A stretch of DNA of 64,000 nucleotides from Phyllobacterium phragmitis (GTDB lineage Bacteria; Pseudomonadota; Alphaproteobacteria; Rhizobiales; Rhizobiaceae): NCBI RefSeq assembly GCF_002980495.1, contig NZ_PVBR01000008.1, forward strand, positions 62,001 through 126,000, written 5' to 3'. Positions 13,843-54,481 of the stretch are shown here, in pieces; within the stretch, counting starts at the first letter, position 1; each line of letters opens with the position of its first letter. The notes under the pieces are model-generated. The model saw only the letters and a program-made list of their open reading frames with translations, had not been told where the DNA came from and did no database searches. Both the position numbers and the translations under genes were made by a program.

Positions 13843-14055
13843 ATGAGCTTACGGGAGAGAGTCGCACGCAATCTGCGCCGGCTGAGACAGGAGAAATCCA
13901 TCTCGCAGGAGGAGCTTGCCCATCGTGCCCAGATCAACCGCAATTATGTCGGCATGGTCGAACGCGAGGAATATTCGATCTCGGTCGACAAGCTGGAGAA
14001 GCTTGCCGATGCTCTGGGCGTCGATCCGGCGGAGTTCTTTCGGAGCGAAGCCTGA
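13843..14055 (+). CDS. qseC: Small XRE-family DNA-binding protein (QseC-like)
   Basis: A 70-residue single-domain helix-turn-helix protein: LRRLRQEKSISQEELAHRA is the first half of the motif and INRNYVGMVEREE the recognition helix region. It has no ligand domain, as in Cro-like repressors. No Shine-Dalgarno is seen before ATG 13843; the message may be nearly leaderless. Position, size and the following DUF2285 and FseA-like genes match QseC of ICEMlSymR7A, the regulator that sets antiactivator expression. The symbol is by context and not proven. Confidence 0.7.
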   Translation: MSLRERVARNLRRLRQEKSISQEELAHRAQINRNYVGMVEREEYSISVDKLEKLADALGVDPAEFFRSEA

Positions 14056-14531: not shown

Positions 14532-14685
14532 TCGGTAGCCGAAAGCCGCTCCACATCGGAATCCATGGCGCCAGAATGCTCAGCCGACGAAACAACAGCA
14601 TTCCGATTATCTGTCTATACGATCCTCAGCCCGCCCCAATACTCGAATCAGCCTGAAGCCATCGGTTGAGGCGGGGGAGGAAGAC

Positions 14686-15472
14686 ATGGAACCACTGCAC
14701 GACTGGCGATCACCGCAATTCGAGGAACAACTGGGCCGTCTTGACCGTGGCGGTGTCGCCTTCGAGTTTCTTCGACGCAACCTCCAATACCGGCAGGACT
14801 ATGCCGAGATGCTGGCAAGGATCGCCTCCGGCGGCACGGACGAGGCAGCGGAGATCGAGCGCCTGTCCTGTCGCTGGGGGCTGTCCTTTCCCGGCGGACC
14901 CTTCTGTCTCTGCCGTCTCCGCCCACCCAATCTGGCAAGCCATCCACTTCCCCGCCACGCTCATTGTCAGGGCTGTTCCGGACGGCTTCGGAGGTTTACC
15001 GCTCCCTGATCCGCAAACACTGCCCGCCGATGGCCGGCTTGCCAGGGATGGTCTCCACACCCTCGTCGCCGACGACGATGGCGATCACCGGCTGTGGTTT
15101 CCCGATGGTAACGAGCCGACCAAGTCGGCCATCGTTCTGCCTATCGACGAGCACTTCTTCTGGCGTCACCGCAATGCGGGCCGCTTCGTACGAAGGCTTG
15201 AGGGAAAGCGACCCGGCATCTTGCCGCGCGCGCAGCGCCTCACGGCCTTCCAGATCCATCGCGCAGCTCTCATGCTGCGTGCCTGGGACGGCATGGAGGC
15301 TGGCGCGTCGCGCCGCATGATCGCCTCAGTCCTGCTCAACAGAAAGATAGAAACCTTGCGCGCCATCGAATGGCAGAACGCGCCGGAGCGCCGACGGCTC
15401 GCCCGCATCCTCAAGGCTGCGCGCGGACACATCGAAGGCGGCTATCTACGCTGGCTGCGAACTCGCAGGTGA
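14686..15472 (+). CDS. fseA: FseA-like excision activator read across a +1 frameshift (DUF6499-DUF2285)
   Basis: Two overlapping frames encode one expected protein. The first (ATG 14686, GGGGAGGAAG before it, stop at 15009) carries the DUF6499 start: DWRSP, then FEFLRRNLQYRQDYAEML. The second, in the +1 frame to 15472, carries DUF2285: LTAFQIHRAALMLRAWDG, then GGYLRWLRTRR. The expected join is ...WGLSF-PADPS..., at TTT CCC G (14887-14893): slipping by one base at TTT or at CCC gives the same protein, 261 residues. In ICEMlSymR7A, FseA is made exactly this way from msi172/msi171 by programmed +1 frameshifting and activates rdfS. An ordinary frameshift mutation or read error is the alternative. 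Confidence 0.75.
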
Positions 15473-21339: not shown

Positions 21340-22185
21340 ATGCCAACGCCCGTTCCCGCACCCCATACCGAACCGTTCCGGACGCATGCACGCGACATTG
21401 CCGCGCGTGATGCGCAGGACCTTATGTCCTGGCCCTTCTTCTCGCTGGCAAAATCCCGCCGCGTCATCCCGATCGACTTCCGCCTCGGCGACGTGTCGAT
21501 CCGCGTCGAGGCCACGGCAGAGCACGGCATGGCGACCATATGGGACGCGGACATCCTGATCTGGGCCGCCAGCCAGATCGTCGACGCGCGTGACAACGGC
21601 CTGCGCACCTCGCGCTTCATGCTCGCCAGGCCCTACGAGATCCTCTCCTTTATCGGCCGCGCCGATACCGGGCTGAACTACATACGTCTGAAGGCCGCGT
21701 TCGACCGGCTCCAGTCCACCACCGTCGTCACTTCGATCCGCCAGCTCTCAGAGAAGCGCCGGCACCGCTTCTCGTGGATCGCCGAATGGAAGGAGCGGCT
21801 GGATGGCGCCCGCTCACTCGGCGTCGAACTCGTGCTCGCGGACTGGTTCTATGCCGGCGTCCTCGATGACGCGCTGATCCTGACCATCGACCGGGAATAT
21901 TTTGCGCTGAAGGGCGGCCTCGAACGCTGGCTCTACCGGCTCGTGCGCAAGCATGGCGGCCGACAGCGCTGGGGCTGGAGTTTTGATATCGCCCATCTCC
22001 ACCTCAAATCGGGGAGCCTCGCGCCGCTGCGCCGCTTCCGCTTCGAGCTGCGCGCCATCGTTCGGCAGCAATCGTTGCCTGGCTATTACCTGGAACTGGT
22101 GGATGAACCTGATGGCCGTCAGCGCCTGATCTTCCAGCCGGACAAACCCGATCTGGTGGGGCGTCGTACCGGAGGCGCAAAATGA
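21340..22185 (+). CDS. Replication initiator protein A (RepA-like)
   Basis: A 281-residue protein beginning 12 bp after rdfS. It matches the replication initiator A family: DLMSWPFFSLAKSRR, GMATIWDADILIWAASQI, TSRFMLARPYEILSFIGR, and GGLERWLYRLVRKHGG. Such proteins are thought to let the excised circle replicate. A series of iteron-like direct repeats starts 50 bp after the stop. A ParA gene, often next in related elements, is absent. The start codon lacks a clear ribosome site. Confidence 0.85.
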   Translation: MPTPVPAPHTEPFRTHARDIAARDAQDLMSWPFFSLAKSRRVIPIDFRLGDVSIRVEATAEHGMATIWDADILIWAASQIVDARDNGLRTSRFMLARPYEILSFIGRADTGLNYIRLKAAFDRLQSTTVVTSIRQLSEKRRHRFSWIAEWKERLDGARSLGVELVLADWFYAGVLDDALILTIDREYFALKGGLERWLYRLVRKHGGRQRWGWSFDIAHLHLKSGSLAPLRRFRFELRAIVRQQSLPGYYLELVDEPDGRQRLIFQPDKPDLVGRRTGGAK

Positions 22186-22234
22186 CGTCCCCCGCGCCGC
22201 ACGGCAATTGTGGATGGCCTGTGAAACAAGCCGA

Positions 22235-22293
22235 ACCAGCGGGAACACTCTTTCCCGTACCAGCAGGAACGCCATTCCCGTACCAGCGGGAAC
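22235..22293 (+). repeat. Three iteron-like direct repeats
   Basis: ACCAGCRGGAAC occurs at 22235-22246, 22259-22270 and 22282-22293, that is every 23-24 bp or about two helical turns, with TTCCCGT between the copies. The unit also forms short inverted repeats (TTCCCG/CGGGAA). They follow the RepA-like gene and are good candidates for initiator binding sites or an origin. Confidence 0.55.
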
Positions 22294-22354
22294 GAATACA
22301 CACTGTAATCGGCGGATATTATTGGCGGATTCCAGCCCCTCTAACTTATCTAAC

Positions 22355-22379
22355 ATCAGGAATCCTTCGGATCCCTGAT
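22355..22379 (+). other. Hairpin in an AT-rich patch after the iterons
   Basis: ATCAGGAATCC (22355-22365) and GGATCCCTGAT (22369-22379) pair with one mismatch around a TTC loop. The surrounding 22310-22380 is the most AT-rich part of this region. It could be part of an origin or end the repA transcript; no T-run follows. Confidence 0.35.
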
Positions 22380-22507
22380 TCTAACGGCATCTCCGAAACC
22401 CGGAGAACGGGGATAAACCCCGGCAGGCAGCAAGGCTCCGAAACAGTTTTCGGATTGCCAGCCCGCGCGCGTCCGATCGCCAGCGATTGTTGGTGCAGGA
22501 GCGCGCT

Positions 22508-22999
22508 ATGAGGACGGGCGAACATCATCCAGCCATTGCGTCCGCGACCACCCTGGTCGAACTGACGTGGCGCGAGAAAGGGATCGAGCATTGGCTTCGC
22601 TTCGGACGGATCGCCGGCGAACAACGTCTCGACCGTCATCGTCGGATCGTCAGCTTCACGCCGGGTAACGTCTTCGCCTTCGTGCGCTGGGCCGGAAACG
22701 AGTATGGCACGATCATCTCGCGTATCGACATTGTGCGCGCCGTCGATCAAGGCGAGCCGTTCCAGACATTGCCTTTCGTTCGGCCAGGGGGCGAGATCCT
22801 ACTCCGTATTCATGGCTGGCCGAAAGTCGAGACGGTGCTGAAGGCAGTCGACGGGATCGAAGCGCTCGGCATTGATCCAGCTGACGTCGCACCGGATCAC
22901 TGGCGGCACATCCACAATCGCGTCAGCGTCAATGAACCGTTCCGAGCCTATACGCTCGTACAGCACCGCGCCTGGCTGCGCCGCCGCGAGGTGACGTGA
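22508..22999 (+). CDS. DUF2840 family protein
   Basis: A 163-residue protein with AGGAG seven bases before ATG 22508. TLVELTWREKGIEHWLRFG, RIVSFTPGNVFAFVRWAGNE and IDIVRAVDQGE with LLRIHGWPKVE follow the DUF2840 pattern. The function is unknown, but the gene is almost always immediately upstream of the TraF peptidase in this ICE class; here the two overlap (TGATG). Confidence 0.85.
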   Translation: MRTGEHHPAIASATTLVELTWREKGIEHWLRFGRIAGEQRLDRHRRIVSFTPGNVFAFVRWAGNEYGTIISRIDIVRAVDQGEPFQTLPFVRPGGEILLRIHGWPKVETVLKAVDGIEALGIDPADVAPDHWRHIHNRVSVNEPFRAYTLVQHRAWLRRREVT

Positions 23000-23559
23000 T
23001 GTCCAGCCGCCGCCTGAAGATCCTTTCAATGCTCGCCGGGGTGGCGCTGGTCGCCACACCGGCATGGCACCGGCCCGACATTCGCTTCATCTGGAATGCC
23101 TCCGCCAGCGTGCCGGTCGGTCTCTACCGCATTGTCCCTGCGGATCGCATCGACGTCACAGATCTGGCCGTCGTCATGCCGCCCGACGAGTTGGCGGCGT
23201 TCCTCGGCGAACGCGGCTACCTGCCGCGCGGTGTTCCGCTCATCAAGCGCGTGCTGGCGCTCGGCGGTACCGAGATTTGCCGGTGCGGCAGCGCGATTAT
23301 CGCCTACGGCATGAACTACGGACAGGCTCGCGGCCACGACACGCGTGGCCGGTCGCTGCCCGTCTGGAAGGGCTGCCGGACGCTCGGCGACGGTGAAGCC
23401 TTCTTCATGAACTGGGACAGTCCCGACAGCTTCGACAGCCGGTATTTCGGGCCGCTTCCCATCTCCACCATCGTCGGCCGAGCCGTCCCCATCTGGGCGG
23501 CCGACCACCCCGATCCGGTCGCGGAAGGCTTTCGCGAGCCGGTTTCCAACGAGCCGTAG
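22999..23559 (+). CDS. traF: Conjugal transfer peptidase TraF (S26 family)
   Basis: A 186-residue membrane-anchored protease with ATG 22999 overlapping the preceding stop. One N-terminal membrane segment (ILSMLAGVALVATPAW) is followed by NASASVPVGLY with catalytic Ser (S38) and LIKRVLALGG with catalytic Lys (K83). TraF of RP4 and Ti plasmids cleaves and cyclises the TrbC pilin. The pilin gene trbC is 25 kb downstream on the far side of cargo 3. Confidence 0.9.
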   Translation: MSSRRLKILSMLAGVALVATPAWHRPDIRFIWNASASVPVGLYRIVPADRIDVTDLAVVMPPDELAAFLGERGYLPRGVPLIKRVLALGGTEICRCGSAIIAYGMNYGQARGHDTRGRSLPVWKGCRTLGDGEAFFMNWDSPDSFDSRYFGPLPISTIVGRAVPIWAADHPDPVAEGFREPVSNEP

Positions 23560-23595
23560 CGGCTCGCTTCCGCCAGCAACGAAAGGAAAGACATC

Positions 23596-23922
23596 GTGGC
23601 CCAGATTGGAACCTTTACCCGCAATGACGACGGCTTCTTCGGCCGTGTCCGCACGCTCACCCTCGACGTCGAAATGACCATTCTTCCTGCCGAAGGATCG
23701 GACGCGGAAAACGCGCCGAACCATCGCGTCTTTTGCGACGGTCTGGAAGTCGGCGCGGCCTGGGACCGCACCGGCGACAGGGCGGGCGGCTACCTCTCCG
23801 TGACCATCGACGATCCGTCCTTCGTCGAGCCGATCCGCACCCGCCTGTTCGAGTCCGATACAAAGAAGGACACATGGAACCTGCATTGGACGCGCAGGAA
23901 GAAGAACGACGGCGAGGCATGA
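23596..23922 (+). CDS. DUF736 family protein
   Basis: A 108-residue protein starting at GTG 23596 after GAAAGGAAAG. MAQIGTFTRNDDGFFGRVRT, then PNHRVFCDGLEVGAAWDR and YLSVTIDDPSF is typical DUF736, a small protein always linked to conjugation modules in alphaproteobacteria. The function is unknown. Confidence 0.88.
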   Translation: MAQIGTFTRNDDGFFGRVRTLTLDVEMTILPAEGSDAENAPNHRVFCDGLEVGAAWDRTGDRAGGYLSVTIDDPSFVEPIRTRLFESDTKKDTWNLHWTRRKKNDGEA

Positions 23923-23928
23923 CAAGTC

Positions 23929-24966
23929 ATGCGGTGCCATCGTTCTCGTCGAACTTCTGGCCCAATCCCCTCGATCGATCGAGCGCCGGTCAATCCCCTC
24001 GACCCGATCGCCTGTCAGGCGGCCGTCGCGCGCAGAGAAGGTCAAGGGCGGCGGCCTGTTTTCCGGGAGACGCTCACGTTTTCGGACGATGCCCGTCCGG
24101 AAAATGTTGGCCGCCGGCGCAGCCTTGCCCTTGGCCGCAGCGAGCACGATGGCAGGCTGATGGCGGTTCGGGACGGCGGTGCTTGCGCTGCCGTCCCTAC
24201 GACCATGACGATGCTCATCGCCTGTACGATGATCGTCGTCATGGCGGCTCCGTCGTCAGCAGAGCCTCCATCGGACGAGTCTCTGCCCGCCGCCATGGCG
24301 ACGCGCGACGGATCGCCCGAGCGCTTGTCGGCAGTCGCGTCGGCGACCGATCCGTGGGCGGCTCACGTCACCGAAGCCGCCCGCCGTTTCGCCATTCCCG
24401 AGCGATGGATTCGCGCGGTCATGGCAGCTGAAAGCGTCGGCGATCCGGCTGCTCTGTCGCCTAAAGGCGCTATCGGTCTCATGCAGGTGATTCCCGCGAC
24501 ATGGGACGAGCTGCGCGTGAAGCACAGTCTCGGAAACGATCCCTGGCAACCTCGCGACAACATCCTCGCAGGTACTGCCTATCTGCGCGAGATGCACGAC
24601 CGCTACGGCACGGTCGACGCGATGCTGGCCGCCTATAATGCCGGGCCGGCGCGCTACGACGAACATGTCGAGAGCGGCGGCGCGCTGCCAGCGGAGACGA
24701 TCGATTACGTCGCGAAGATCACGCCGATGATCGACGGCACGGTTCCCATTGCGCGCGCTATTGGCAGATCATCGCGACCGACATGGCCCCACGCGCCGCT
24801 CTTCATTGCCCGCTCGAGTGTCCATTCAAACGACGATCCGGCGATTGCCAATCTTCCTTCTGGTCGCCCCTCAAACGATCCGGCGGTGGTCGATCTGTCA
24901 GCATTCGTGCCGCCATCCGACGGTCTCTTCGTGGGACGGCCGGAAGCGGAAGGAGAAACGCGATGA
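23929..24966 (+). CDS. Lytic transglycosylase (VirB1-type)
   Basis: The frame from ATG 23929 gives 345 residues. The first ~90 residues look non-globular, and a signal-like segment MTMLIACTMIVVMAAPSSA begins near residue 93 (about 24205), so the true start may be there. The SLT domain has catalytic Glu168 in MAAESVGDP, GLMQVIPATW (183-192) and AAYNAGP (234-240). It opens peptidoglycan locally so the Trb channel can be assembled. Confidence 0.85.
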   Translation: MRCHRSRRTSGPIPSIDRAPVNPLDPIACQAAVARREGQGRRPVFRETLTFSDDARPENVGRRRSLALGRSEHDGRLMAVRDGGACAAVPTTMTMLIACTMIVVMAAPSSAEPPSDESLPAAMATRDGSPERLSAVASATDPWAAHVTEAARRFAIPERWIRAVMAAESVGDPAALSPKGAIGLMQVIPATWDELRVKHSLGNDPWQPRDNILAGTAYLREMHDRYGTVDAMLAAYNAGPARYDEHVESGGALPAETIDYVAKITPMIDGTVPIARAIGRSSRPTWPHAPLFIARSSVHSNDDPAIANLPSGRPSNDPAVVDLSAFVPPSDGLFVGRPEAEGETR

Positions 24967-25064
24967 TCATCGTGGTTTCTCGCGTTGCAGAGTGTGCAAT
25001 CGCAGGCGTTGCGAGACACTGCGGGGCAGCCGGGACCGACCGAAGAGGAGGGCGGGATAAAAAG

Positions 25065-25192
25065 CCGCACATCGCGGCTCGGTTGGGTGGGGGGTATTGC
25101 TGGCTCTGCCGGAACCTTCCGCACATCGCGGCCAAGCACTGCGATGTGCGCGTCTTGACTTTATCGAGCGATTTCAACGGAATCCGCACATC
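25065..25192 (+). other. oriT: Candidate origin of transfer (oriT)
   Basis: The region directly before the relaxase gene holds CCGCACATCGCGGC twice (25065-25078, 25119-25132), a third partial CCGCACATC (25184-25192), and a perfect 10-bp inverted repeat CGCACATCGC / GCGATGTGCG (25120-25129, 25141-25150) with an 11-base loop. Repeats and an inverted repeat beside the relaxase gene are the usual layout of an oriT with its nic site. No nic position can be assigned by eye. Confidence 0.6.
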
Positions 25193-25207
25193 TCAACGGA
25201 AATGGCC

Positions 25208-26944
25208 ATGAGCCGCGACGACGATTTCCGCGTCCGGCCAGGCCGCATCCGCTCATCGAGGGCGCAGCGGGCAAAACCCTTCGTCGCCCAGGCGCTCGCC
25301 GCCGCGCAGAAAGCCGGCGGCCGCATCTCGCGCTCGGGCAGGATCACCTCCGGCAACGGCTCGCGCTTCGGCCGCGGCCGCGTCGCCAGCGTGCGCGCCA
25401 ACCGCCTGATCACCAGCCGCTCGCGCGGCGCCGTCATCAAGACCCGCGTTGTCCGGCACACTGTGCGCTCCGCGACGCTGACCGCCCATCTCAACTATCT
25501 TCGCCGCGACGGCGTGACCCGTGACGGCGAAAAGGCTCGCATGTTCGGCCCCGAGACGGACGATGCTGACGTCAAGGGCTTCGCCGAGCGCTGCGAGGAC
25601 GATCGCCACCACTTCCGCTTCATCGTCTCGCCCGACGATGCGCTGGAGATGACCGATCTGAAAACCTTCACCCGTGATCTCATGGCGCAGATGGAAAAGG
25701 ATCTTGGCACGAAGCTAGAATGGGTGGCCGTTGATCACTGGAATACGGCGCATCCCCATGTCCATGTCATCCTGCGCGGCCGCGCCGATGACGGGCAGGA
25801 CCTCATGATCGCCCGCGACTACATCAAGGAGGGCATGCGCAACCGCGCACAGGACCTCATCACCCAGGAACTCGGCTCGCGCACCGATCTCGACATTCGC
25901 CGCGTGCTGGAGCGACAGGTCGAGGCTGAACGCTGGACTCGGCTCGACCGTCAGCTTGTCCGGGACGCCGACAGATACGGTTTCCTCGACGTTGCTCCCG
26001 TGCCCGACCAGAAGCCGGACGAATACCTCACCCTGAAGGTCGGCCGGCTGCGCCATCTCGAGCGTCTCGGCCTTGCCGAGAGCGTCGGCCCTGGCCAATG
26101 GCTCATTGCCGATGAAGCCGAGCCGACTTTGCGCGAGCTCGGCGAGCGCAACGACATCATCAAGCGCATGCACCGAGCGCTCACCGAGCGCGGCATAGAT
26201 CGCGGCCTCACCGATTACGTCATCGCTGGTGACACGCAGGCCGAACCGATCATCGGCAGGCTGGTCGATCGTGGCCTCGACGACGAACTGCGCGGCACCG
26301 CCTATGCCGTGGTCGACGGCATAGACGGCCGCACCCACCATATTCGCTTCCACGATCTCGACGCGGCTGGTGATTCCGCGCCCGGTTCCATCGTCGAGTT
26401 GCGCCGCTTCGAAGATCGTAGCGGTCGGCCCCGCACCGCGCTCGCCGTTCGCTCCGACCTCTCCATCGAGGCACAGGCGACGGCGGACGGCGTGACTTGG
26501 CTCGACCGCCAGCTCATCGCCCGCGACCCTGTCGATCTGGGCGGCCGCTTCGGCCTGGAGGTGAAACAGGCCATGGAGGCTCGCGCCGAGCACCTGATCC
26601 AGGAAGGGCTAGCGCGGCGCGAAGGCCAGGGCATCGTCTTTGCCCGCAATCTGCTCGCCACGCTGCGCGAGCGCGAGCTGGATGCGCTCGGCCAAAAGCT
26701 CGCGGCCGAGACCGGCATGCCCTTCCAGAAATTCGCCGCCGGTGAATATGTCGCGGGCACCTACCGGCAGCGCTTCGCGCTCGCCTCCGGCCGCTTCGCC
26801 CTAATCGACGACGGGCTCGGCTTCAAACTGGTGCCCTGGACCCCATCCGTCGAGAAGCATATCGGTCAGCACATCTCCGGCGTCGCTCGTGGCGACGGCG
26901 GTGTCGATTGGTCCATTGGCCGCAAGCGCGGGCTGGGATTGTGA
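25208..26944 (+). CDS. rlxS: VirD2-like relaxase (DUF3363), RlxS-like
   Basis: A 578-residue protein. I use ATG 25208 (MSRDDDFRVRPGRIR, the usual family start) although the frame is open further upstream. Domains: a basic, arginine-rich first 100 residues; a relaxase core with the metal-binding histidines H182, H184 and H186 in AHPHVHVIL; and a C-terminal DUF3363 region from about residue 240. It should nick oriT, stay covalently attached to the 5' end and be passed through TraG to the Trb channel. In ICEMlSymR7A the equivalent RlxS is required for transfer. Confidence 0.9.
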   Translation: MSRDDDFRVRPGRIRSSRAQRAKPFVAQALAAAQKAGGRISRSGRITSGNGSRFGRGRVASVRANRLITSRSRGAVIKTRVVRHTVRSATLTAHLNYLRRDGVTRDGEKARMFGPETDDADVKGFAERCEDDRHHFRFIVSPDDALEMTDLKTFTRDLMAQMEKDLGTKLEWVAVDHWNTAHPHVHVILRGRADDGQDLMIARDYIKEGMRNRAQDLITQELGSRTDLDIRRVLERQVEAERWTRLDRQLVRDADRYGFLDVAPVPDQKPDEYLTLKVGRLRHLERLGLAESVGPGQWLIADEAEPTLRELGERNDIIKRMHRALTERGIDRGLTDYVIAGDTQAEPIIGRLVDRGLDDELRGTAYAVVDGIDGRTHHIRFHDLDAAGDSAPGSIVELRRFEDRSGRPRTALAVRSDLSIEAQATADGVTWLDRQLIARDPVDLGGRFGLEVKQAMEARAEHLIQEGLARREGQGIVFARNLLATLRERELDALGQKLAAETGMPFQKFAAGEYVAGTYRQRFALASGRFALIDDGLGFKLVPWTPSVEKHIGQHISGVARGDGGVDWSIGRKRGLGL

Positions 26945-26976
26945 TCACCACCTATCGATACGGCATCGATCTGTCG

Positions 26977-27756
26977 TCACCGCTTGCCGCCGATCAGAGA
27001 TTTGAGACGCCCCATTAAGCCGCCTTGGCGCCGCGGCGGAAGAGGCGTACTCTGCCCGACGGGTGGCTTGACAAAGATCGTCTGTCTCAGCCGCTCAGAG
27101 GCGACATCCCGTCGGCGCTCGGTCCGTGGCGATCTGACTCCAGGCAAGAGGTCGGCCTCGTCAATACCGAATGATGGCGAGCCCACGGCTTCGAACGGCA
27201 TGGCAAGCCTCGTCGCCTTCATCCTTCGCACATGGTTGACGCTCATGGGAAAGAAGGCGCCGTCCGGTTCCTCGAACAGGTTGAAGTCTCCCTGCAGCAC
27301 CTTGCACGCCGGGCAATGATTGGCCCAATAGGTCGTCTGCGTCGTCTTGCTGAAGGCCGGGCGATAAAGCGGCGCTTCCGACTTCAGCGTCTTCACGACC
27401 GCTGGCGGCAGATCGGTAATGTAGTGAGCAAAAGCCCATTCGTCGTGCCTGAACCAGAACCGCACCTCCTCGCCGTGCTCATCCTCGTCATAATCCCGCA
27501 TCTCGAAGCCGGGCGCCATCAGAAGCCCGACCGCCGCGAAGGGCTCCGAACAGCGCCAGCATCGTGCCGGTGAGCGCACGAGATAGGCTTCCGCCGCCCG
27601 CAGATTGAAATCGCTCTCTGCCGGAAGCCAGCGAGCAAAGGGAGCCGGATCGACACCGTCCGGCACATACCAGACGCGCTTGCTTGGGTTCCAGCGGGCT
27701 CCGAGCTTCTTGACTTCGTCCTTCTGTGGGTAGGGAACATTGAGATCGATTCGCAT
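26977..27756 (-). CDS. DUF5710 protein with two CxxC pairs
   Basis: A 259-residue protein on the opposite strand between the relaxase and traG genes. ATG 27756 is preferred over a slightly longer frame; AAAGGTG lies upstream. Residues 1-35 (MRIDLNVPYPQKDEVKKLGA, then RWNPSKRVWYVP) form the DUF5710 module, which is linked to nucleic-acid-processing proteins. CWRC and CPAC further on could hold a zinc ion. The C-terminal 50 residues are basic. The function is unknown. Confidence 0.75.
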   Translation of the reverse strand: MRIDLNVPYPQKDEVKKLGARWNPSKRVWYVPDGVDPAPFARWLPAESDFNLRAAEAYLVRSPARCWRCSEPFAAVGLLMAPGFEMRDYDEDEHGEEVRFWFRHDEWAFAHYITDLPPAVVKTLKSEAPLYRPAFSKTTQTTYWANHCPACKVLQGDFNLFEEPDGAFFPMSVNHVRRMKATRLAMPFEAVGSPSFGIDEADLLPGVRSPRTERRRDVASERLRQTIFVKPPVGQSTPLPPRRQGGLMGRLKSLIGGKR

Positions 27757-27926
27757 CTGCGGGCACCTTTGAGCGCGCATCGACGCGCTCTGTTGCTCGC
27801 CGAAATGCGCAAATATTTTTTCGCTATCCTACGATCAGCTACGCCGGCCACTCAATATCAATTGGCCAACAAATCCCTTCTGCGCTTCTTTGGCTATTTG
27901 AATGCTTTGATGGGAGTCAGATCGTC

Positions 27927-29954
27927 TTGTCCGCGAGCCGCATCATGTGGGGCCAGATCATCGTCGTGTTCTCGATCGTGCTCATCGCGGTCTGGAGCGC
28001 GACGCAATGGACCGCATGGCGGCTCGGTTTCCAGGCGCAGCTCGGCCAGCCCTGGCTCGAGATTGTCGGCCTGCCGGTCTATCCGCCACCCGCCTTCTTC
28101 TGGTGGTGGTATTTTTACGACGCCTATGCACCACATATTTTCTATGAAGGTGCGGCCATTGCGGCCTCGGGCGGCCTTGTCGCTATCGCTGCCGCCATAC
28201 TCATGTCGATCTATCGTGCGCGCGAGGCAAAGGATGTGCGCACCTTCGGCTCGGCGCGCTGGGCCGAGCGGCAGGAAATCAGGGATGCTGGCCTGCTCGG
28301 TGACGATGGCATCGTACTCGGCAAGCTCGACCACGAATATCTGCGCCATGACGGTGCCGAGCATGTGCTGTGCTTCGCGCCGACACGCTCCGGCAAGGGC
28401 GTCGGGCTCGTCGTGCCAACCCTGCTCACCTGGCCTGGTTCGGCCATCGTCCACGACATCAAGGGCGAGAACTGGGAACTGACCGCTGGCCTACGTTCGC
28501 GTTTCGGCCGCGTGCTGTTGTTCGACCCGACGAATGCGAAGTCGGCGGCCTACAATCCGCTTCTCGAAGTCCGGCGCGGCGAATGGGAAGTACGCGACGT
28601 TCAGAACGTCGCTGACGTGCTGGTCGATCCCGAAGGCTCGCTGGAGCGCCGGAACCATTGGGAAAAGACCAGTCACGCACTGCTGGTCGGCGCGATCCTG
28701 CATGTCCTCTATGCCGAAAAGGACAAGACGCTCGCCGGTGTCGCCGCCTTTCTTTCCGACCCGCGTCGGCCGATCGAGGCGACGCTTGCCGCCATGATGA
28801 CGACGCCGCATCTGGGCGAGAAAGGTCCGCACCCAGTGGTCGCCAGTGCCGCGCGCGAACTGCTCAACAAATCGGACAACGAGCGTTCCGGCGTGCTGTC
28901 CACCGCCATGTCCTTCCTCGGACTCTACCGCGATCCGGTTGTCGCTGCCGTCACCAGCCGCTGCGACTGGCGCATCGCCAACATCGTATCCGCCGACAAA
29001 CCAACGACGCTCTATCTCGTCGTGCCGCCCTCCGACATCAGCCGCACAAAACCGCTCGTGCGCCTCGTGCTCAACCAGATCGGCCGCCGGCTCACCGAGG
29101 AACTGCATGCGAAGGACCGCCGCCATCGCCTGCTCCTGATGCTCGACGAATTCCCGGCGCTCGGCCGGCTCGATTTCTTTGAATCGGCGCTTGCCTTCAT
29201 GGCCGGCTACGGCATCAAGGCGTTCTTGATTGCACAATCGCTCAATCAGATCGAGAAGGCATACGGCGCCAACAACTCGATCCTCGACAATTGCCATGTC
29301 CGCGTGAGCTTCGCGACCAACGACGAGCGGACGGCCAAGCGTGTGTCGGATGCGCTCGGCACCGCCACCGAGATGCGCGCCATGCAGAACTATGCCGGGC
29401 ATCGGCTCGCGCCCTGGCTCAGCCACCTGATGGTCTCGCGTTCCGAAACGGCGCGGCCGCTGCTGACCCCCGGCGAGGTGATGCAGCTGCCACCCGACGA
29501 TGAGATCGTCATGGTAGCCGGTACACACCCGATCCGGGCGAAGAAGGCGCGCTATTACGAGGATGCACGCTTCACGGAGCGGCTGCTACCTGTACCCAAG
29601 AGCCCGAGTGCCGGGTTCTTGCCACAGCCCGACGACTGGTCGGTGCTGAAGCCGGTCGTACCTTCTCGTCCTCCCGAAGATGATAGTGGCTCAACGCTTC
29701 CTTCTGCCACCCAACCGAAAATCGCTCAATCTGCGAAGGAAGACGATCCGGCCAATGCCGGCCTGCGCCGTGAGCCCGGCCTCGAGCCGCACAAAGATAT
29801 CGCACCGGAGCCCGCCAGGCCGCTGGCCAACGAGTTCGATCCCGACATTGATGAACCCGACCGCGAATCCACCGCCAACCGTGCGCTTGTGCGCAACATG
29901 CGCCAGGTCGCACGACAGGTCTCGATGGATCCCGGAGACCGTATGGAGATGTAA
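27927..29954 (+). CDS. traG: Type IV coupling protein TraG (VirD4 family)
   Basis: A 675-residue protein starting at TTG 27927, ten bases after GGGAG; the sequence from here (MSASRIMWGQIIVVF) matches the usual family N-terminus. Two membrane segments lie at about residues 8-25 and 75-93. Walker A is APTRSGKGVG (151-160) and Walker B LLLMLDEFPALG with D407-E408. The hexameric ATPase links the relaxase-DNA complex to the Trb channel. The last ~110 residues are proline-rich and variable. Confidence 0.93.
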   Translation: MSASRIMWGQIIVVFSIVLIAVWSATQWTAWRLGFQAQLGQPWLEIVGLPVYPPPAFFWWWYFYDAYAPHIFYEGAAIAASGGLVAIAAAILMSIYRAREAKDVRTFGSARWAERQEIRDAGLLGDDGIVLGKLDHEYLRHDGAEHVLCFAPTRSGKGVGLVVPTLLTWPGSAIVHDIKGENWELTAGLRSRFGRVLLFDPTNAKSAAYNPLLEVRRGEWEVRDVQNVADVLVDPEGSLERRNHWEKTSHALLVGAILHVLYAEKDKTLAGVAAFLSDPRRPIEATLAAMMTTPHLGEKGPHPVVASAARELLNKSDNERSGVLSTAMSFLGLYRDPVVAAVTSRCDWRIANIVSADKPTTLYLVVPPSDISRTKPLVRLVLNQIGRRLTEELHAKDRRHRLLLMLDEFPALGRLDFFESALAFMAGYGIKAFLIAQSLNQIEKAYGANNSILDNCHVRVSFATNDERTAKRVSDALGTATEMRAMQNYAGHRLAPWLSHLMVSRSETARPLLTPGEVMQLPPDDEIVMVAGTHPIRAKKARYYEDARFTERLLPVPKSPSAGFLPQPDDWSVLKPVVPSRPPEDDSGSTLPSATQPKIAQSAKEDDPANAGLRREPGLEPHKDIAPEPARPLANEFDPDIDEPDRESTANRALVRNMRQVARQVSMDPGDRMEM

Positions 29955-47754: not shown

Positions 47755-47943
47755 TTCGGCTTAACCTTCACGGAGGTGGCTATCTACCGGCTCGGGCCGC
47801 CGAATACTGCCTGTATTTTTTCGATTGCCTACGACCGCGTACGTTACGCCGAAGAATAGTGTTGCGCGCGCGCAAATTGTGCCTTTCTTAATTGTCCCCG
47901 TTGCCATCCGATCGTTTCGTGGGTGGCCGGAAACGGGGGCGAG

Positions 47944-48948
47944 ATGCCGGCACACCATCACCAGAATGAAAGACTATCGCGCGGCGCGCGCATGCTGCGC
48001 ACGGCGCTCGGTCCCGCCATTGCGCGCTATCTCGAAGACCCTTCGATCGTTGAGGTGATGTTGAACCCTGACGGGCGGCTCTGGGTCGACCGGCTGAGAG
48101 AAGGGCTGATCGCCACGGACGACCTTCTGATCCCGGCCGATGGCGAGCGCATTGTCAGGTTGGTCGCGCATCATGTCGGCACCGAAGTCCATCCGGGCAG
48201 CCCTCGCGTCTCAGCCGAACTGCCGGAGACGGGCGAGCGCTTCGAAGGTCTCCTGCCTCCGGTCGTTGCGGCGCCCGCCTTTGCCATCCGCAAGCCTGCC
48301 GTCGCCGTCTTCACGCTCGCCGACTACGTCGCGTCCGGTATCATGACGGCAGCCCAGGCCGACGTGCTGCGCCTCGCCGTCGAGAAGCGGAAAAACATTC
48401 TCGTCGCCGGCGGCACTTCGACCGGCAAGACCACGCTGACGAATGCCCTGCTGGCGGAGGTGGCAAAGACCGCCGACCGCGTGGTGCTGATCGAGGACAC
48501 CCGCGAGCTGCAATGCGCCGCGGCCAACCTCGTGGCGCTACGCACCAAGGACGGCGTGGCCTCGCTCTCCGAGTTGGTGAAGTCGTCCCTGCGCCTGCGC
48601 CCCGACCGCATCCCGGTCGGCGAGGTGCGCGGAGCGGAGGCCCTCGACCTGCTCAAGGCGTGGGGCACCGGCCATCCCGGCGGCATCGGCACGATCCATG
48701 CCAGCACCGCGATCGGCGCGATGCGTCGGCTGGAGCAGCTCGTGCAGGAGGCCGTGGTCACGGTCCCGCGCGCGCTGATCGCCGAGACGATTGACCTGAT
48801 TGTAGTGCTCGCTGGCCGCGGCGCCGAACGCCGGCTGGCGGAGATCGCCCTTGTCGAGGGGCTCGATCCCGCGACCGGCGATTACCGCACCCTCAACGCG
48901 CAGCTCGTACCCGATCCGCAACGCCGTCCCGAAGGAGACGAACAATGA
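47944..48948 (+). CDS. trbB: TrbB, secretion ATPase (VirB11 family)
   Basis: A 334-residue ATPase. ATG 47944 has GGGGGCGAG just before it; the in-frame extension to 47923 is unlikely. Walker A is [10 protein letters not shown] with K162; the Asp box [10 protein letters not shown], Walker B region RIPVGEVRG and the His box GGIGTIHAS follow. It powers pilus assembly and substrate transfer. It starts the trb operon, 4 bp overlaps linking the next genes. The cargo border lies in the 190 bp upstream. Confidence 0.93.
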
Positions 48949-49280
48949 CGCCTTCCATCCCCGCCCGAATCCGCAGCGGCTTGGTCCACGCGACCGCGCT
49001 CGCTGCCGCCACCGTGCTGACCGCGCTTCCCGCCCGTGCCGCCGGTTCCTCCATGCCGTGGGAGGAACCGCTTCAACAGATCCTAGAATCCATCGAAGGC
49101 CCTGTCGCCAAGATCGTCGCCGTCATCATCATCATTATCACCGGCCTGACGCTCGCCTTCGGCGACACGGCCGGCGGCTTTCGCAGGCTGATCCATATCG
49201 TGTTCGGATTGAGCATCGCTTTCGCGGCCAGCTCCTTCTTCCTGTCCTTCTTCTCCTTCGGTGGCGGAGCGCTCGTCTGA
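48945..49280 (+). CDS. trbC: TrbC, conjugative pilin precursor (VirB2 family)
   Basis: A 111-residue protein; ATG 48945 overlaps the trbB stop. A long signal peptide (cleavage near ARA-A, residue ~33) is followed by two hydrophobic helices (IVAVIIIIITGLTLAF and LIHIVFGLSIAFAASSFFL). The TraF peptidase would cleave the C-terminus and cyclise the pilin. Confidence 0.9.
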   Translation: MTPSIPARIRSGLVHATALAAATVLTALPARAAGSSMPWEEPLQQILESIEGPVAKIVAVIIIIITGLTLAFGDTAGGFRRLIHIVFGLSIAFAASSFFLSFFSFGGGALV

Positions 49281-49546
49281 TGATGGAAGAGGACGTTCGC
49301 GGCTTCTTCGCGCCGGTCCATCGCGCGCTGACCGAGCCGATCCTGCTCGGCGGCGCTCCACGCTCTGTCGCCATTCTCAACGGTACGCTTGCCGGTGCGG
49401 TTGGGCTCGGCCTGCGCCTTTGGATCGCCGGCCTCGCCATCTGGGTGATCGGCCATTTCGCGGCCGTGTGGGCGGCGAAGCGCGACGCCCAGTTTGTCGA
49501 CGTGGTGCGACGGCACCTGCGCTATCCGGCCCATCTAGGCGTGTGA
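49280..49546 (+). CDS. trbD: TrbD (VirB3 family)
   Basis: An 88-residue inner-membrane protein with ATG 49280 overlapping the trbC stop; a second ATG follows at 49283. FFAPVHRALTEPILLGGAPR is the family signature, followed by one or two membrane spans (ILNGTLAGAVGLGL, LWIAGLAIWVIGHF). It works with TrbE in channel assembly. Confidence 0.9.
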   Translation: MMEEDVRGFFAPVHRALTEPILLGGAPRSVAILNGTLAGAVGLGLRLWIAGLAIWVIGHFAAVWAAKRDAQFVDVVRRHLRYPAHLGV

Positions 49547-49553
49547 GGTCGCC

Positions 49554-52091
49554 ATGCTCAATCTCTCTGAGTACCGCAAGCGTTCCGCCAGCCTCGCCGA
49601 CTTCCTGCCCTGGGCAGCGCTCGTGGCACCGGGGGTGGTGCTCAACAAGGATGGCTCCTTCCAGCGCACCGCGCGCTTTCGCGGTCCCGATCTCGACAGC
49701 GCCACGCCGGCCGAACTGGTCGCCACGACCGCGCGCCTCAACAATGCGCTGCGCCGCCTCGGCTCGGGCTGGGCCATCTTCGTCGAAGCCCAGCGCAACC
49801 CCGCCACCGACTATCCCGCCAGCCTGTATCCCGACAGCGCGTCCGCGCTCCTCGACATCGAGCGCCGCGAGCAGTTCGAGGAATCCGGCCTTCTCTACGA
49901 GAGCAGCTATTTCCTTACTTTCGTCTGGTTGCCGCCGGCCGAGGAAGCCTCCCGTATAGAAAGTTGGCTCTACGAGGGCCGGGAACGAAGCGGCGTCGAC
50001 CCCTGGGAACTGCTCAAAGGCTTCGTCGATCGTACAGATCGCGTCCTCAACCTTGTCGAAGGGTTCGTGCCGGAGGCCGAATGGCTCGATGATAGCGAGA
50101 CCCTGACCTATCTGCACTCGACCATCTCGACGACCCGTCATCGCGTCCGCATGCCCGAGATGCCGATGCACCTCGATGCGCTGCTCGCCGACCAGCCGCT
50201 GACCGGCGGGCTGGAGCCACGACTGGGCGATCTCCATCTGCGTACACTGACCGTGATCGGATTCCCGACCACGACGTTCCCCGGAATCCTCGATGATCTC
50301 AACCGTCTCGCCTTCCTCTATCGCTGGTCGACACGCGCGATCATGCTCGACAAGCTGGAGGCTACCCGCCTGGTCACGAAGATACGGCGGCAGTGGTTCG
50401 CCAAGCGGAAGTCCGTCGCCGCCATCATCAAGGAGGTGATGACCAATGAGGCGTCGGTGCTGACGGACACCGACGCTGCCAACAAGGCCGCCGACGCCGA
50501 CGCCGCCTTGCAGGATCTCGGCTCCGATCAGGTCGGCGAAGCATACGTCACAGCCACGGTGACGGTCTGGGACGCGGATCGCGCCATCGCTGACGAGAAG
50601 CTGAGGCTGGTCGAGAAGGTGATCCAGGCCAGAGACTTCACCTCGATCGTCGAGGGCGTCAACGCCATTGAAGCCTGGCTCGGCTCCATCCCCGGCCAGA
50701 CTTACGCGAACGTCCGGCAGCCGCCGATCTCGACGCTCAACCTCGCCCATATGATCCCTCTTTCAGCGGTCTGGGCGGGGTCGGCCAAGGATGAGCACTT
50801 CGATGCGCCACCGCTCTTCTATGCCAAGACCGAAGGCGCGACGCCGTTCCGTTTCGCGCTTCATATCGGCGATGTGGGCCACACGGTCGTCATCGGCCCT
50901 ACCGGCGCAGGCAAATCCGTATTGCTCGCGCTCATGGCGCTCCAGTTTCGCCGCTACGCGCATGCCCAAGTTTTCGTCTTCGATTTCGGCGGCTCGATTC
51001 GGGCGGCCACGCTGGCGATGGGCGGCGACTGGCAGGACCTGGGCGGCTCGCTGTCGGACGATGCCGTTTCCACCTCCGTCTCGCTCCAGCCGCTCGCCGG
51101 CATCCATCACACGCCCGAGCGCGCCTGGGCGGCCGACTGGCTGGTCGACATTCTCGTGCGCGAGGGCGTGACCATCACCCCGGAAGTGAAGGAGCATCTC
51201 TGGTCGGCGCTCACCTCACTCGCCTCGGCGCCGGTCGACGAGCGCACCATCACCGGCCTGACCGTTCTGCTGCAAGTTAACGCGCTCAAGCAGGCACTCA
51301 AACCATATTGCATCGGCGGCGCGCATGGTCGGCTGCTCGACGCCGAGACCGAACGGCTCGGCGAGGCGTCCGTCCAGGCCTTCGAGACCGAGGGGCTGAT
51401 AGGCACCAAGGCCGCTCCCGCCGTGCTCTCCTATCTCTTCCACCGCATCGAGGCCCGCTTCGATGGGCGGCCGACGCTTCTCATTATCGACGAGGGCTGG
51501 CGTGCGCTCGATGACGGCGACTTCGCCGACAAGATTAAGGAATGGCTGAAGACGCTGCGCAAGAAGAACGTCTCCGTCGTCTTCTCCTCGCAGTCGCTCG
51601 CCGACATCGAAGCATCGCCGATCGCCCCTGTCATCGTCGAGAGCTGCCCGACACGCATCTTCCTCGCCAACGAACGCGCCCTCGAGCCGCAGATCGCTGC
51701 CGTCTATCGCCAGTTCGGCCTGAACGATCGCCAGATCGAGATCGTCGCGCGGGCAACGCCCAAGCGTGACTATTACTGCCAGTCGCGGCGCGGCAACCGC
51801 CTGTTCGAACTCGGCCTGGGCCACATCGCACTCATCCTGTGCGGAGCTTCCGACAAGGCGGCCCATGCCCTGATCGACGAGCTGCTCCGTGAGGGCGTAC
51901 GCCCTCACTTCCTTGAAGCATGGCTGCGGGCCAATGGCCTTGGCTGGGCCGCCGACCTCATCCCCGACATTACAAACGTCATCGACCAGTCCGCGTCCGC
52001 GGATGCGCCGGACAGGTCCGTCGCAGCCGATGAATCCGTCACGGCGGAAGATCTTGATCCCACCCATCCGTCATCCGAACAGGAGGTTTGA
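49554..52091 (+). CDS. trbE: TrbE, secretion ATPase (VirB4 family)
   Basis: An 845-residue protein starting 7 bp after trbD. The N-terminal half (LSEYRKRSASLADFLPWAAL, then GSFQRTARFRGPD) is the VirB4 membrane/assembly region. Walker A is GPTGAGKS (448-455) and Walker B LLIIDEGW with D646-E647. It is the largest channel ATPase and is slightly longer than most TrbE proteins because of the C-terminal acidic tail. Its stop lies just upstream of the trbJ start. Confidence 0.94.
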   Translation: MLNLSEYRKRSASLADFLPWAALVAPGVVLNKDGSFQRTARFRGPDLDSATPAELVATTARLNNALRRLGSGWAIFVEAQRNPATDYPASLYPDSASALLDIERREQFEESGLLYESSYFLTFVWLPPAEEASRIESWLYEGRERSGVDPWELLKGFVDRTDRVLNLVEGFVPEAEWLDDSETLTYLHSTISTTRHRVRMPEMPMHLDALLADQPLTGGLEPRLGDLHLRTLTVIGFPTTTFPGILDDLNRLAFLYRWSTRAIMLDKLEATRLVTKIRRQWFAKRKSVAAIIKEVMTNEASVLTDTDAANKAADADAALQDLGSDQVGEAYVTATVTVWDADRAIADEKLRLVEKVIQARDFTSIVEGVNAIEAWLGSIPGQTYANVRQPPISTLNLAHMIPLSAVWAGSAKDEHFDAPPLFYAKTEGATPFRFALHIGDVGHTVVIGPTGAGKSVLLALMALQFRRYAHAQVFVFDFGGSIRAATLAMGGDWQDLGGSLSDDAVSTSVSLQPLAGIHHTPERAWAADWLVDILVREGVTITPEVKEHLWSALTSLASAPVDERTITGLTVLLQVNALKQALKPYCIGGAHGRLLDAETERLGEASVQAFETEGLIGTKAAPAVLSYLFHRIEARFDGRPTLLIIDEGWRALDDGDFADKIKEWLKTLRKKNVSVVFSSQSLADIEASPIAPVIVESCPTRIFLANERALEPQIAAVYRQFGLNDRQIEIVARATPKRDYYCQSRRGNRLFELGLGHIALILCGASDKAAHALIDELLREGVRPHFLEAWLRANGLGWAADLIPDITNVIDQSASADAPDRSVAADESVTAEDLDPTHPSSEQEV

Positions 52092-52093
52092 CC

Positions 52094-52834
52094 ATGCCCC
52101 AACATTCCCGCCTTCATCACGCTCTTGCAGCCGGCACACTTTCCATCGGCATCGCGTTGGTCGCCACACCGGTCTCGGCGCTGATCGTGTTCGATCCGTC
52201 CAATTACGCGGAAAATGTTCTGACCGCGACACGCACGCTGGAACAGATCAACAACCAGATTACCTCGCTCGCCAACGAGGCGCAGATGCTTATCAATCAG
52301 GCGAAGAATCTGACCAGCCTGCCGACATCGATGCTGTCCCGGATCGAGGGCAATTTCTCGGAGATGAAGAGCCTGCTCGGCGAAGCCGAGCGCCTCGCTT
52401 ACAGCGTACAGGACATCGAGAACCAGTTCTCCGCGACCTATCGCGACTTCGCCGCCGACAAGACCGGCGAGCAACTCGTCACCGCCGCCCGCGAGCGCTG
52501 GCGGCAGTCCGTCTCCGCCTTCGAGCACTCGCTGAAAGCCGGAGCCGTCGCGGTCGGCAATATCGAGGGCACGCAGGCACAGACTCGCAACCTGGTCGAT
52601 GCCAGCCAGTCCGCTGCCGGAATCCTTCAGGCGACACAGGCCGGCAACCAGTTGCTCGCCGTACAGGCGAGCCAGATCGCCGATCTCACCGCCATGCTCG
52701 CGGCCCAGGGGCGGGCCGACGCGCTGGAGCAGTCGCGGCGCGCGGCCGCGCAGGAACAGGCCCGCGAGCAGTTCGGTCGCTTCATGGCCGGCCGAGACTA
52801 CACCCCGTCCACCGTGCGCATGTTCAACGAGTGA
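52094..52834 (+). CDS. trbJ: TrbJ (VirB5 family)
   Basis: A 246-residue exported protein. ATG 52094 has a perfect AGGAGG seven bases upstream; a TTG at 52088 is also in frame but too close. The signal peptide ends in VSALIVFDPSN, typical of TrbJ, and the mature part is helical and glutamine-rich (LEQINNQITSLANEAQML). It is a minor pilus or adhesion component. Confidence 0.9.
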   Translation: MPQHSRLHHALAAGTLSIGIALVATPVSALIVFDPSNYAENVLTATRTLEQINNQITSLANEAQMLINQAKNLTSLPTSMLSRIEGNFSEMKSLLGEAERLAYSVQDIENQFSATYRDFAADKTGEQLVTAARERWRQSVSAFEHSLKAGAVAVGNIEGTQAQTRNLVDASQSAAGILQATQAGNQLLAVQASQIADLTAMLAAQGRADALEQSRRAAAQEQAREQFGRFMAGRDYTPSTVRMFNE

Positions 52835-52847
52835 GGGCACACACGCG

Positions 52848-53117
52848 ATGGACCTGAAGATCGCCGCCCGGATGATCGCCGCCCTCGCCATCGGCGCAGC
52901 CATGATTGCCGCCGTCGTTGCGCTGCGCGAGGTAGGCTCGGAGGACACCGCCCCCACCAGCCGCCTCCGTGATCCGGGCGGCGAGCCCGCAAATACCGAA
53001 CTGGTTCGCTGCCGCGACCTGGGCATGGCGGCTGCCGACGATGCCACCTGCAAGGAGGTGTGGGCCGAGCATCGTCGGCGTTTCCTCGAAACGCGCAGGG
53101 AGCGCTCGCACCCGTGA
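52848..53117 (+). CDS. trbK: TrbK-alt type putative entry-exclusion protein
   Basis: An 89-residue protein from ATG 52848. An N-terminal membrane helix (MIAALAIGAAMIAAVVAL) is followed by a short domain with two cysteines in ELVRCRDLGMAAADDATCKE, the pattern of the alternative TrbK family. It probably prevents redundant transfer into cells already carrying the element. It overlaps trbL by 4 bp. Confidence 0.8.
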   Translation: MDLKIAARMIAALAIGAAMIAAVVALREVGSEDTAPTSRLRDPGGEPANTELVRCRDLGMAAADDATCKEVWAEHRRRFLETRRERSHP

Positions 53118-54481
53118 ACGATGTCGGCGTCATCGACCGCTTCCTGGGCACCTTCACCGCCTATATCGACTCCGGCTTCGGCCTGCTCGGCGGCGAGGTG
53201 GCGTTTCTCACCACCACGCTGATCGTCATCGACATCACGCTCGCCGGCCTGTTCTGGGCTTGGGGCGCGGACGAGGACGTGCTTCAGCGGCTGGTGAAGA
53301 AGACGCTCTATATCGGCTTCTTCGCCTTCATCATCGGCAACTTCAACGCGCTCGCCGGCATCGTCTTCGAGAGCTTCTCCGGCCTCGGCCTCCAGGCTGG
53401 CGGATCGTCGCTCTCCGGTTCCGAACTTCTCCAGCCAGGCCGCGTCGCCCAGGTCGGCATTGACGCCGGCAATCCGATCCTCGAGGCCGCCAGCGAGCTG
53501 ATGGGCTATATCTCCTTCTTCGAGAACCTGATCCAGATCGTCGTGCTGATGACCGCTTGGGTGATCGTTTTGATCGCCTTCTTCGTTCTCGCCGTCCAGA
53601 TCTTCGTCACGCTCATCGAGTTCAAGCTGACCACCTTGGCGGGATTCGTGCTGATCCCGTTCGCGCTCTTCGGCAAGACGGCCTTCCTCGCCGAAAAGGT
53701 GCTCGGCAATATCGTCGCCTCGGGTGTCAAGATCCTCGTGCTCGCCGTGATTGTCGGCATCGGCTCCGGCCTGTTCGGCGAGTTCACCTCGGGCTTTCCG
53801 GGCGAGCCGACCGTCACCGACGCCATGTCGCTGGCGCTCGGCGCGTTGGCGCTGATGGGTCTGTCCATCTTCGGTCTCGGCATCGCCACCGGCCTTATTT
53901 CCGGCGCCCCGCAGCTCGGCGCGGGCGCCGCCGTGGGCACCGGGCTCGCCGTCGCCGGTATGGGAGCGGCGGGCTACATGGGCGCGCGTGCGGGACTGAG
54001 TGGTGGTGCCGCTGCGATCGGAGCGGGCGGGCGCATGAGCGCGGCCGCCGCACGCGGCGGCGCGCATATGGCCGGCAGCACATCCACGGCCTACGGGCTC
54101 GCCGCCGCCACGTCCGGTCAGAGCGGCATGGGCGCCGTCGCCGCCGGACTGGGCGGTGTTGCAAGGGCCGGGGCCTCCGCCGCAGCCCAGCCCGCGCGGC
54201 AGGCGATGTCGCGTGCCGCCGGGGCCCTGCGCTCCAGCTATCGCTCCGGCCAGGCCGGCGCATGGACCGCGACAGGCGGTCAATCGCCCGGCGCCAGCAT
54301 GGACGGGTCCAGTGGCGGCACCGCTGCCGCCCCCTCGTCGGAGCAACCGGCCTGGGCCGCCCGCATGAAGCGTGGCCAGACCATGAGCCACGGCGCGACC
54401 GCCGCTGCCCACGCAGTCCGGTCCGGCGACCACGGCGGCGGCTCCATGAATGTCTCACTCGATCAGGATGACCGCAGATGA
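53114..54481 (+). CDS. trbL: TrbL, polytopic channel protein (VirB6 family)
   Basis: A 455-residue inner-membrane protein starting at GTG 53114, which overlaps the trbK stop. About six membrane spans lie in residues 25-275 (for example FLTTTLIVIDITLAGLF, IVVLMTAWVIVLIAFF). The last ~180 residues are rich in Ala, Gly and Ser and low in complexity, as is usual for TrbL. It forms the inner part of the DNA channel. Confidence 0.92.
   Translation: MNDVGVIDRFLGTFTAYIDSGFGLLGGEVAFLTTTLIVIDITLAGLFWAWGADEDVLQRLVKKTLYIGFFAFIIGNFNALAGIVFESFSGLGLQAGGSSLSGSELLQPGRVAQVGIDAGNPILEAASELMGYISFFENLIQIVVLMTAWVIVLIAFFVLAVQIFVTLIEFKLTTLAGFVLIPFALFGKTAFLAEKVLGNIVASGVKILVLAVIVGIGSGLFGEFTSGFPGEPTVTDAMSLALGALALMGLSIFGLGIATGLISGAPQLGAGAAVGTGLAVAGMGAAGYMGARAGLSGGAAAIGAGGRMSAAAARGGAHMAGSTSTAYGLAAATSGQSGMGAVAAGLGGVARAGASAAAQPARQAMSRAAGALRSSYRSGQAGAWTATGGQSPGASMDGSSGGTAAAPSSEQPAWAARMKRGQTMSHGATAAAHAVRSGDHGGGSMNVSLDQDDRR

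Follow-up and report, generated by a model that had tools for sequence, protein, structure and literature searches.

FseA (Msi172-Msi171) of ICEMlSymR7A in Mesorhizobium japonicum is the closest described system. As in the gene studied here, its DUF6499 and DUF2285 domains lie in overlapping frames; in FseA they are joined by a +1 shift, as stated in PMC10359603 and PMC5009743. According to the accessible parts of PMC10359603, this programmed shift is conserved across proteobacteria, about 61% of 4709 homologues have two frames and a conserved +1 site, FseA activates rdfS, QseM blocks FseA by binding DUF6499, and RovC is a distant relative. In the accessible part of PMC5009743, UUU_Ynn is given as a +1-prone tetranucleotide, and a UCC_UUU_CGU cassette is described, in which the TCC before UUU is reported as helping. 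A further case is prfB, the gene for RF2, where a +1 shift occurs and a Shine-Dalgarno (SD)-like run lies upstream.

The gene analysed here is found in a 64,000-nucleotide stretch of DNA, referred to as the window hereafter. The +1 shift, the conserved site and the wide distribution are already in print, and the window's gene is a divergent new copy. Its element resembles ICEMlSymR7A in having QseM and RdfS homologues and the same kind of conjugative backbone (PMC10359603, PMC5882170, PMC11963761, as far as these were accessible). Compared with ICEMlSymR7A by description, it differs in the gene order (qseC-like, qseM, fseA), in having no LuxR-domain match on its contig, and in the reduced motif and divergent sequence of its fseA. 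Like the UCC_UUU_CGU cassette, it carries UCC_UUU_C with no downstream structure seen in relatives, but CCC, not CGN, follows UUU, and a GGGGG run is added upstream. It shares with prfB the predicted +1 shift and the upstream SD-like run; however, the A site holds no stop codon (CCC follows TTT), the slip codon is different, and the GGGGG run ends 6 nt, not 3 nt, before it. Transfer of large mobile elements is gated by this conserved bacterial +1 frameshift, of which the locus supplies a further copy, divergent and showing natural variation. The gene probably switches on the transfer of such an element.

The split gene and its neighbourhood

The features of the locus are collected in Table 1. 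The ORF list gives a frame 0 of 107 aa and a +1 frame free of stops from 14666 to 15472. The Pfam search placed PF20109 (DUF6499; E 3.5e-20) in frame 0, and PF22792 (DUF7012; E 2.9e-11) and PF10074 (DUF2285; E 1.5e-23) in the +1 frame. These matches and the ORF coordinates bear out the initial annotation, which had assigned the DUF6499 and DUF2285 halves to different, overlapping frames. Within the overlap, the site reads TTT CCC G (14887–14893), with TTT in frame 0 and C as the next base. When the frames are joined here by a +1 shift, 68 and 193 residues make up a product of 261 residues, and the join (...WGLSF-PADPS...) is identical whether the slip falls on TTT or CCC. The joined translation thus reproduced the single product claimed for the two slips.

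Table 1 Features of the fseA locus and its element in the window
Feature	Position	Strand	Basis or match
XRE/Cro-type HTH protein, 70 aa, QseC-like	13843..14055	+	PF01381 E 8e-16
QseM homologue, lone DUF2285 protein, 87 aa	14268..14531	+	PF10074 E 1.9e-9
Perfect 7-bp inverted repeat, 16-nt spacer, between qseM and fseA	14574..14603		
Frame-0 product, DUF6499 and 39-codon tail after TTT	14686..15009	+	ORF list, Pfam
GGGGG run, SD-like, last G 6 nt before TTT	14876..14880	+	Sequence
Predicted slip tetranucleotide TTT-C	14887..14890	+	Conservation of TTT-Y in split relatives
+1-frame half of FseA, post-shift, 193 aa	14891..15472	+	Pfam, joined translation
DUF7012	14954-15109	+	Pfam, in +1-frame half of FseA
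DUF2285	15134-15460	+	Pfam, in +1-frame half of FseA
RdfS homologue, presumed FseA target, 88 aa	21061..21327	+	PF12728 E 4.4e-10
ICE backbone: RPA, DUF2840, S26 peptidase, DUF736, SLT, DUF3363/relaxase, TraG-type coupling protein	21340..29954	+	
trb-type conjugation cluster	47923..57412	+	T2SSE, CagE/TrbE, TrbL, VirB8, CagX, TrbI matches

Judged by its domains and neighbourhood, the gene is fseA. The QseM homologue matched PDB 7uqt, 'Quorum sensing master protein' (E 5.1e-16, residues 3–82), and the RdfS homologue matched PDB 8dgl, 'Recombination Directionality Factor RdfS' (E 1.3e-6, residues 11–59). Since both lie in a conjugative backbone, the gene would be the fseA of an ICEMlSymR7A-like element. 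The HTH protein at the head of the cluster may be QseC by its position; in NCBIfam, it matched 16 HTH families, none above the family's own cut-off. NCBIfam gave nothing for either fseA frame, the QseM homologue or the RdfS homologue, and the PDB search with the +1-frame half gave a single match (E 0.31), to an unrelated protein. No similarity was detected by BLASTP between the window's QseM and the +1 half of its FseA. The LuxR/TraR-type domain PF03472 had no match on the window's contig and five elsewhere in the host genome. In the plasmid search with a 1273-base query, 36 records were found, none with 80% query coverage; in the 20 of them listed, the matches fell at query bases 80–332, the qseM stretch.

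From these comparisons, it is very probable that a programmed +1 slip on TTT yields FseA, which activates rdfS and is checked by the QseM homologue. The majority of ribosomes would complete the frame-0 product, DUF6499 alone. A minority would slip by +1 with tRNA-Phe on TTT, its anticodon GAA re-pairing with TTC; CCG would be read next, and the 261-residue activator FseA would be made. The slip would be helped by the shift-prone TTT-Y tetranucleotide, and also by the upstream sequence, namely the GGGGG run and the weak codon that precedes TTT. FseA would then turn on rdfS, and the QseM homologue would block FseA by binding DUF6499. That the shift takes place in this host is our inference, as are its efficiency, what each upstream codon does and, by homology, the regulatory wiring. 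The proposal of an FseA-type programmed +1 switch, already made at the outset, is supported by the relatives, the QseM and RdfS homologues, and the codon conservation.

The FseA box consists of hexamers spaced 15–16 bp apart (PMC10359603, accessible part). A 16-nt spacing, as in the inverted repeat between qseM and fseA, was not enriched among 140 representatives of the relatives, and the repeat was dropped as a box-like element for this reason. Separately, the 220 nt upstream of DUF6499 in the relatives often contain short inverted repeats whose loops measure 5, 7, 9 or 11 nt: 43 of 140 representatives have 7-bp arms with a 7-nt loop, and in L001, a T-rich sequence follows the repeat. Such short repeats (e.g., in L001 and L002) are perhaps a terminator between qseM and fseA.

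Split genes and the slip codon among relatives

DUF6499 was found in 20 of the 61 genomes drawn as relatives (the window's own included), in 86 of 397 genomes of the order and in 43 of 398 of the phylum; the three samples overlap. The survey added 80 named loci (the best 80 of 492 confirmed) and left out six weak places (G315, G211 twice, G248, G227:C62 and G764:C10). In viral contigs, at least one locus was confirmed among the 600 pattern matches listed, and one viral locus was added to the set as well. In all, 255 distinct genes were classed, one of them the window's: 208 are split by +1 (counting L038, whose frames do not overlap), 35 are single-frame, 10 have no DUF2285 found, one is split by 0 (in frame) and one by −1; with five loci of the genus Brucella removed, 203 of 250 are split by +1. 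This proportion agrees in kind with the figure in the accessible part of PMC10359603, the sampling being different. Of the 208 split genes, 201 have TTT followed by a pyrimidine (TTT-Y) at the homologous place. The other seven, with no assigned slip site, are L030 (a spurious second hit of 4.3 bits), L069, L146, L151, L156, L157 and L177; in L156 and L157, TTT-C is present further downstream.

The same direction of the split in 208 of the 255 genes, together with TTT-Y at the homologous place, argues that the split is neither chance nor an error of a single record. A dead gene or a sequencing error, one base having been gained or lost with no shift, might be suspected from the long branch and the reduced motif of the window's copy. 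This is very unlikely, because all five DUF6499 genes of the host are also split in the same direction, both halves of the window's gene score well in Pfam, and the +1 half runs to its end with no stop. Nor did the genes examined include an unbroken close relative of the same element type, which would have spoken against a programmed shift: those in a single frame, 35 in all, are mostly weaker family matches and carry no signal as a set. A quick tree was made of 94 genes, in which 41 of 91 inner branches are left open. Counting well supported branches alone, genes switched between split and single at least 5 times; the best tree has 8 such switches. The window's FseA forms a long branch there, with a top identity of 40% among the 94 rows.

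Two separate proteins could also be made from the overlapping genes, with no fusion. In the window, the open stretch of the +1 frame begins before the frame-0 start, and a start codon of some kind lies upstream in this frame in 119 of 201 relatives. Nevertheless, the first 15 codons past the junction contain no start codon in 157 of the 201 or in the window, and both domains are in one frame in 35 genes, which makes this explanation extremely improbable.

The initial annotation had left open whether TTT or CCC slips. For this question, the fair test is a reading of 140 split genes at a fixed domain end with the bases unconditioned, since TTT-Y was required in the enlarged set. TTT was present at the junction in 132 of the 140, followed by C in 123, T in 9, and A or G in none; in the remaining 8, the register differs or TTT is missing. 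The codon after TTT (201 genes) is CCC in 90, CGC in 67, CGT in 15 and others in 29, including TCC in 7. As this codon varies across the relatives, natural variation points to TTT over CCC as the slip codon: the identity of the product stood, while CCC turned out to be one of many codons at its place. A slip of tRNA-Pro on CCC, with TTT incidental, would fit the CCC G of the window, the unchanged product and the rank of CCC as the commonest codon there. However, 111 of the 201 relatives carry another codon, so a CCC slip cannot be general, whereas re-pairing of tRNA-Phe from TTT to TTY can. The tRNAs also oppose it: the 48 found in the host include tRNA-Pro(GGG), along with TGG and CGG, and a slip of the GGG species from CCC to CCG would set G against G. 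A slip on CCC is accordingly exceedingly unlikely. The only tRNA-Phe found has the anticodon GAA, which should pair better on TTC than on TTT; the earlier suggestion that re-pairing from TTT to TTC would be favourable fits this.

The host genome has eleven DUF2285 matches and five DUF6499 matches. It belongs to the genus of Phyllobacterium salinisoli: genome G005 is a congener, and its locus L027 and L190 of P. salinisoli are identical, down to the contig coordinates. Besides the window's gene, four further split fseA copies lie on contigs C43, C59, C44 and C38 of the host (G000; L001, L002, L003 and L005), in all of which CGA precedes TTT and the base after TTT is a pyrimidine. The copy on C38 is preceded, some 500 nt upstream and in the same orientation, by a LuxR-domain match.

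Codon selection upstream of the slip codon

In 125 cluster representatives, the synonymous constraint at GGG, TTR, CGA and TTT is 1.80, 1.27, 1.99 and 1.66 bits, respectively, the last being for a codon selected for in that set. In comparison, it is 0.18–0.40 bits in the 20 codons preceding the conserved Trp. In the +1 frame, it is 0.17 bits directly after the slip and 0.08–0.38 over the first 14 codons; codon 15 has 0.64 and codon 16 has 0.45. The counts agree: GGG encodes the junction Gly in 158 of 198 split genes (97 of 122 representatives; background 12%), TTR occurs in 144 of 184 (79 of 111; 14%), CGA before TTT makes up 128 of 141 Arg codons (74 of 82; 10%), and TTT occurs in 201 of 201 (125 of 125; 32%), the set having been chosen to have TTT-Y. 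As these relatives share ancestry, binomial p-values were not taken at face value. Among the single-frame genes, GGG was found in 5 of 28, CGA in 0 of 11, TTT in 4 of 8, and TTR in 12 of 29, above their 23% background; GGG-TTR-CGA-TTT as a set is absent from them. TTT-Y itself is also present in three, the near-identical L152 and L153 and the out-of-register L184. The restriction of the constraint to the upstream side and the lack of the set in single-frame genes point to an upstream signal of about four codons tied to the split, whose parts can be tested separately.

The window's fseA keeps GGG and TTT-C, and CTG-TCC replaces TTR-CGA. Its DUF6499 has AFEFLRRN in place of the AWEFLRRN motif, one residue (Trp to Phe) being different. 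These replacements and the long branch suggest that the window's copy could be weakened. TCC or TCT precedes TTT in 20 of the 201 genes, and is then followed by CGC in 18, TGC in one and CCC in one (the window); nine relatives have UCC_UUU_CGC. The fseA junction is the one place in the 64 kb that has the pattern TGGGGNYTNNNNTTTY(N6)GA, against a shuffle mean of 0.01 occurrences; this count is a description and not an independent test, since the pattern was composed after the relatives were seen. An association between the codons before and after TTT (TCY with CGN, CGA with CCN; 59/29 versus 1/13, Fisher p 2.7e-5) was rejected as not shown, because only 3 independent pairs lie on well supported branches.

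When 60 of the 125 representatives were folded, no downstream RNA structure was seen (mean z 0.03 for +9 to +69, −0.24 for +4 to +54 and −0.03 for −30 to +60); the upstream stretch from −63 to −3 gave −0.61. The GGGGG run may pair with the anti-SD of the ribosome.

This run bears on a variant in which the shift occurs one step earlier, with the pre-TTT codon in the P site and tRNA-Phe taking the +1 TTY, so that the same protein results. The run lies 3 nt from the pre-TTT codon and 6 nt from TTT, and the SD-like run of prfB sits 3 nt from its slippery codon (PMC12421855, accessible part). The strong preference for CGA before TTT (128 of 141 Arg codons) would suit the variant as well; no tRNA-Arg(TCG) was among the 48 host tRNAs found, so that inosine is probably the only means of reading CGA. 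Downstream of TTT, the next codon is unconstrained (0.17 bits), though a tRNA-Phe waiting in the P site would gain from a slow codon there. On the other hand, the window has TCC, not CGA, and PMC5009743, in its accessible part, has the codon before UUU (UCC_UUU_CGU) act from the E site and does not name a stimulator for it. We consider the earlier shift unlikely, and retain the slip on TTT. The published account in Ramsay 2015 (PNAS) reportedly also has tRNA-Phe slipping from UUU to UUC.

In the accessible parts of the literature searched, to which Ramsay 2015 did not belong, the codon-by-codon selection, the SD-like spacing and a decoy role of the frame-0 product (below) are unmentioned; priority is not claimed for them.

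Possible role of the frame-0 product and further sites

Why the gene stays split may have a testable reason: the split would be kept because both products matter, the abundant frame-0 DUF6499 serving as a decoy for QseM and the rare +1 product as the activator. If this is true, a single slip ratio sets the transfer switch's threshold as well as its output. Residues 1–85 of FseA bind QseM as strongly as the whole FseA does in two-hybrid assays (PMC10359603, accessible part). Of 205 split genes, 135 are preceded by a lone DUF2285 gene in the same orientation at a distance of up to 900 nt, and such a neighbour was found in none of the 34 single-frame genes having 950 nt upstream. However, 70 of the 205 have no such neighbour in view, and split and single-frame genes each group together on the tree, where independent pairs give no support. 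Moreover, the DUF2285 profile was built from the same set, in which split genes dominate, and it could overlook antiactivators that have diverged next to single-frame genes. The linkage of qseM to the split state, having no independent support on the 94-gene tree, was set aside, and the decoy role is regarded as doubtful.

Three other observations were made in the survey. One is that GGAGG-CAT-CTTTGAC occurs near a release-factor gene of the host (L316), so the host may use SD-aided +1 shifting in prfB. Another is that Azorhizobium oxalatiphilum (L192) has the canonical split site GGG-TTG-CGA-TTT-C. The frameshift is said to be absent in A. caulinodans (PMC9601964, accessible part), a claim that deserves a re-check given this site. 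The last is that the fseA regions of L008, L255, L248 and L260, from differently named bacteria, are 97.5–99.9% alike over 1.6–2.9 kb; this near-identity suggests recent transfer.
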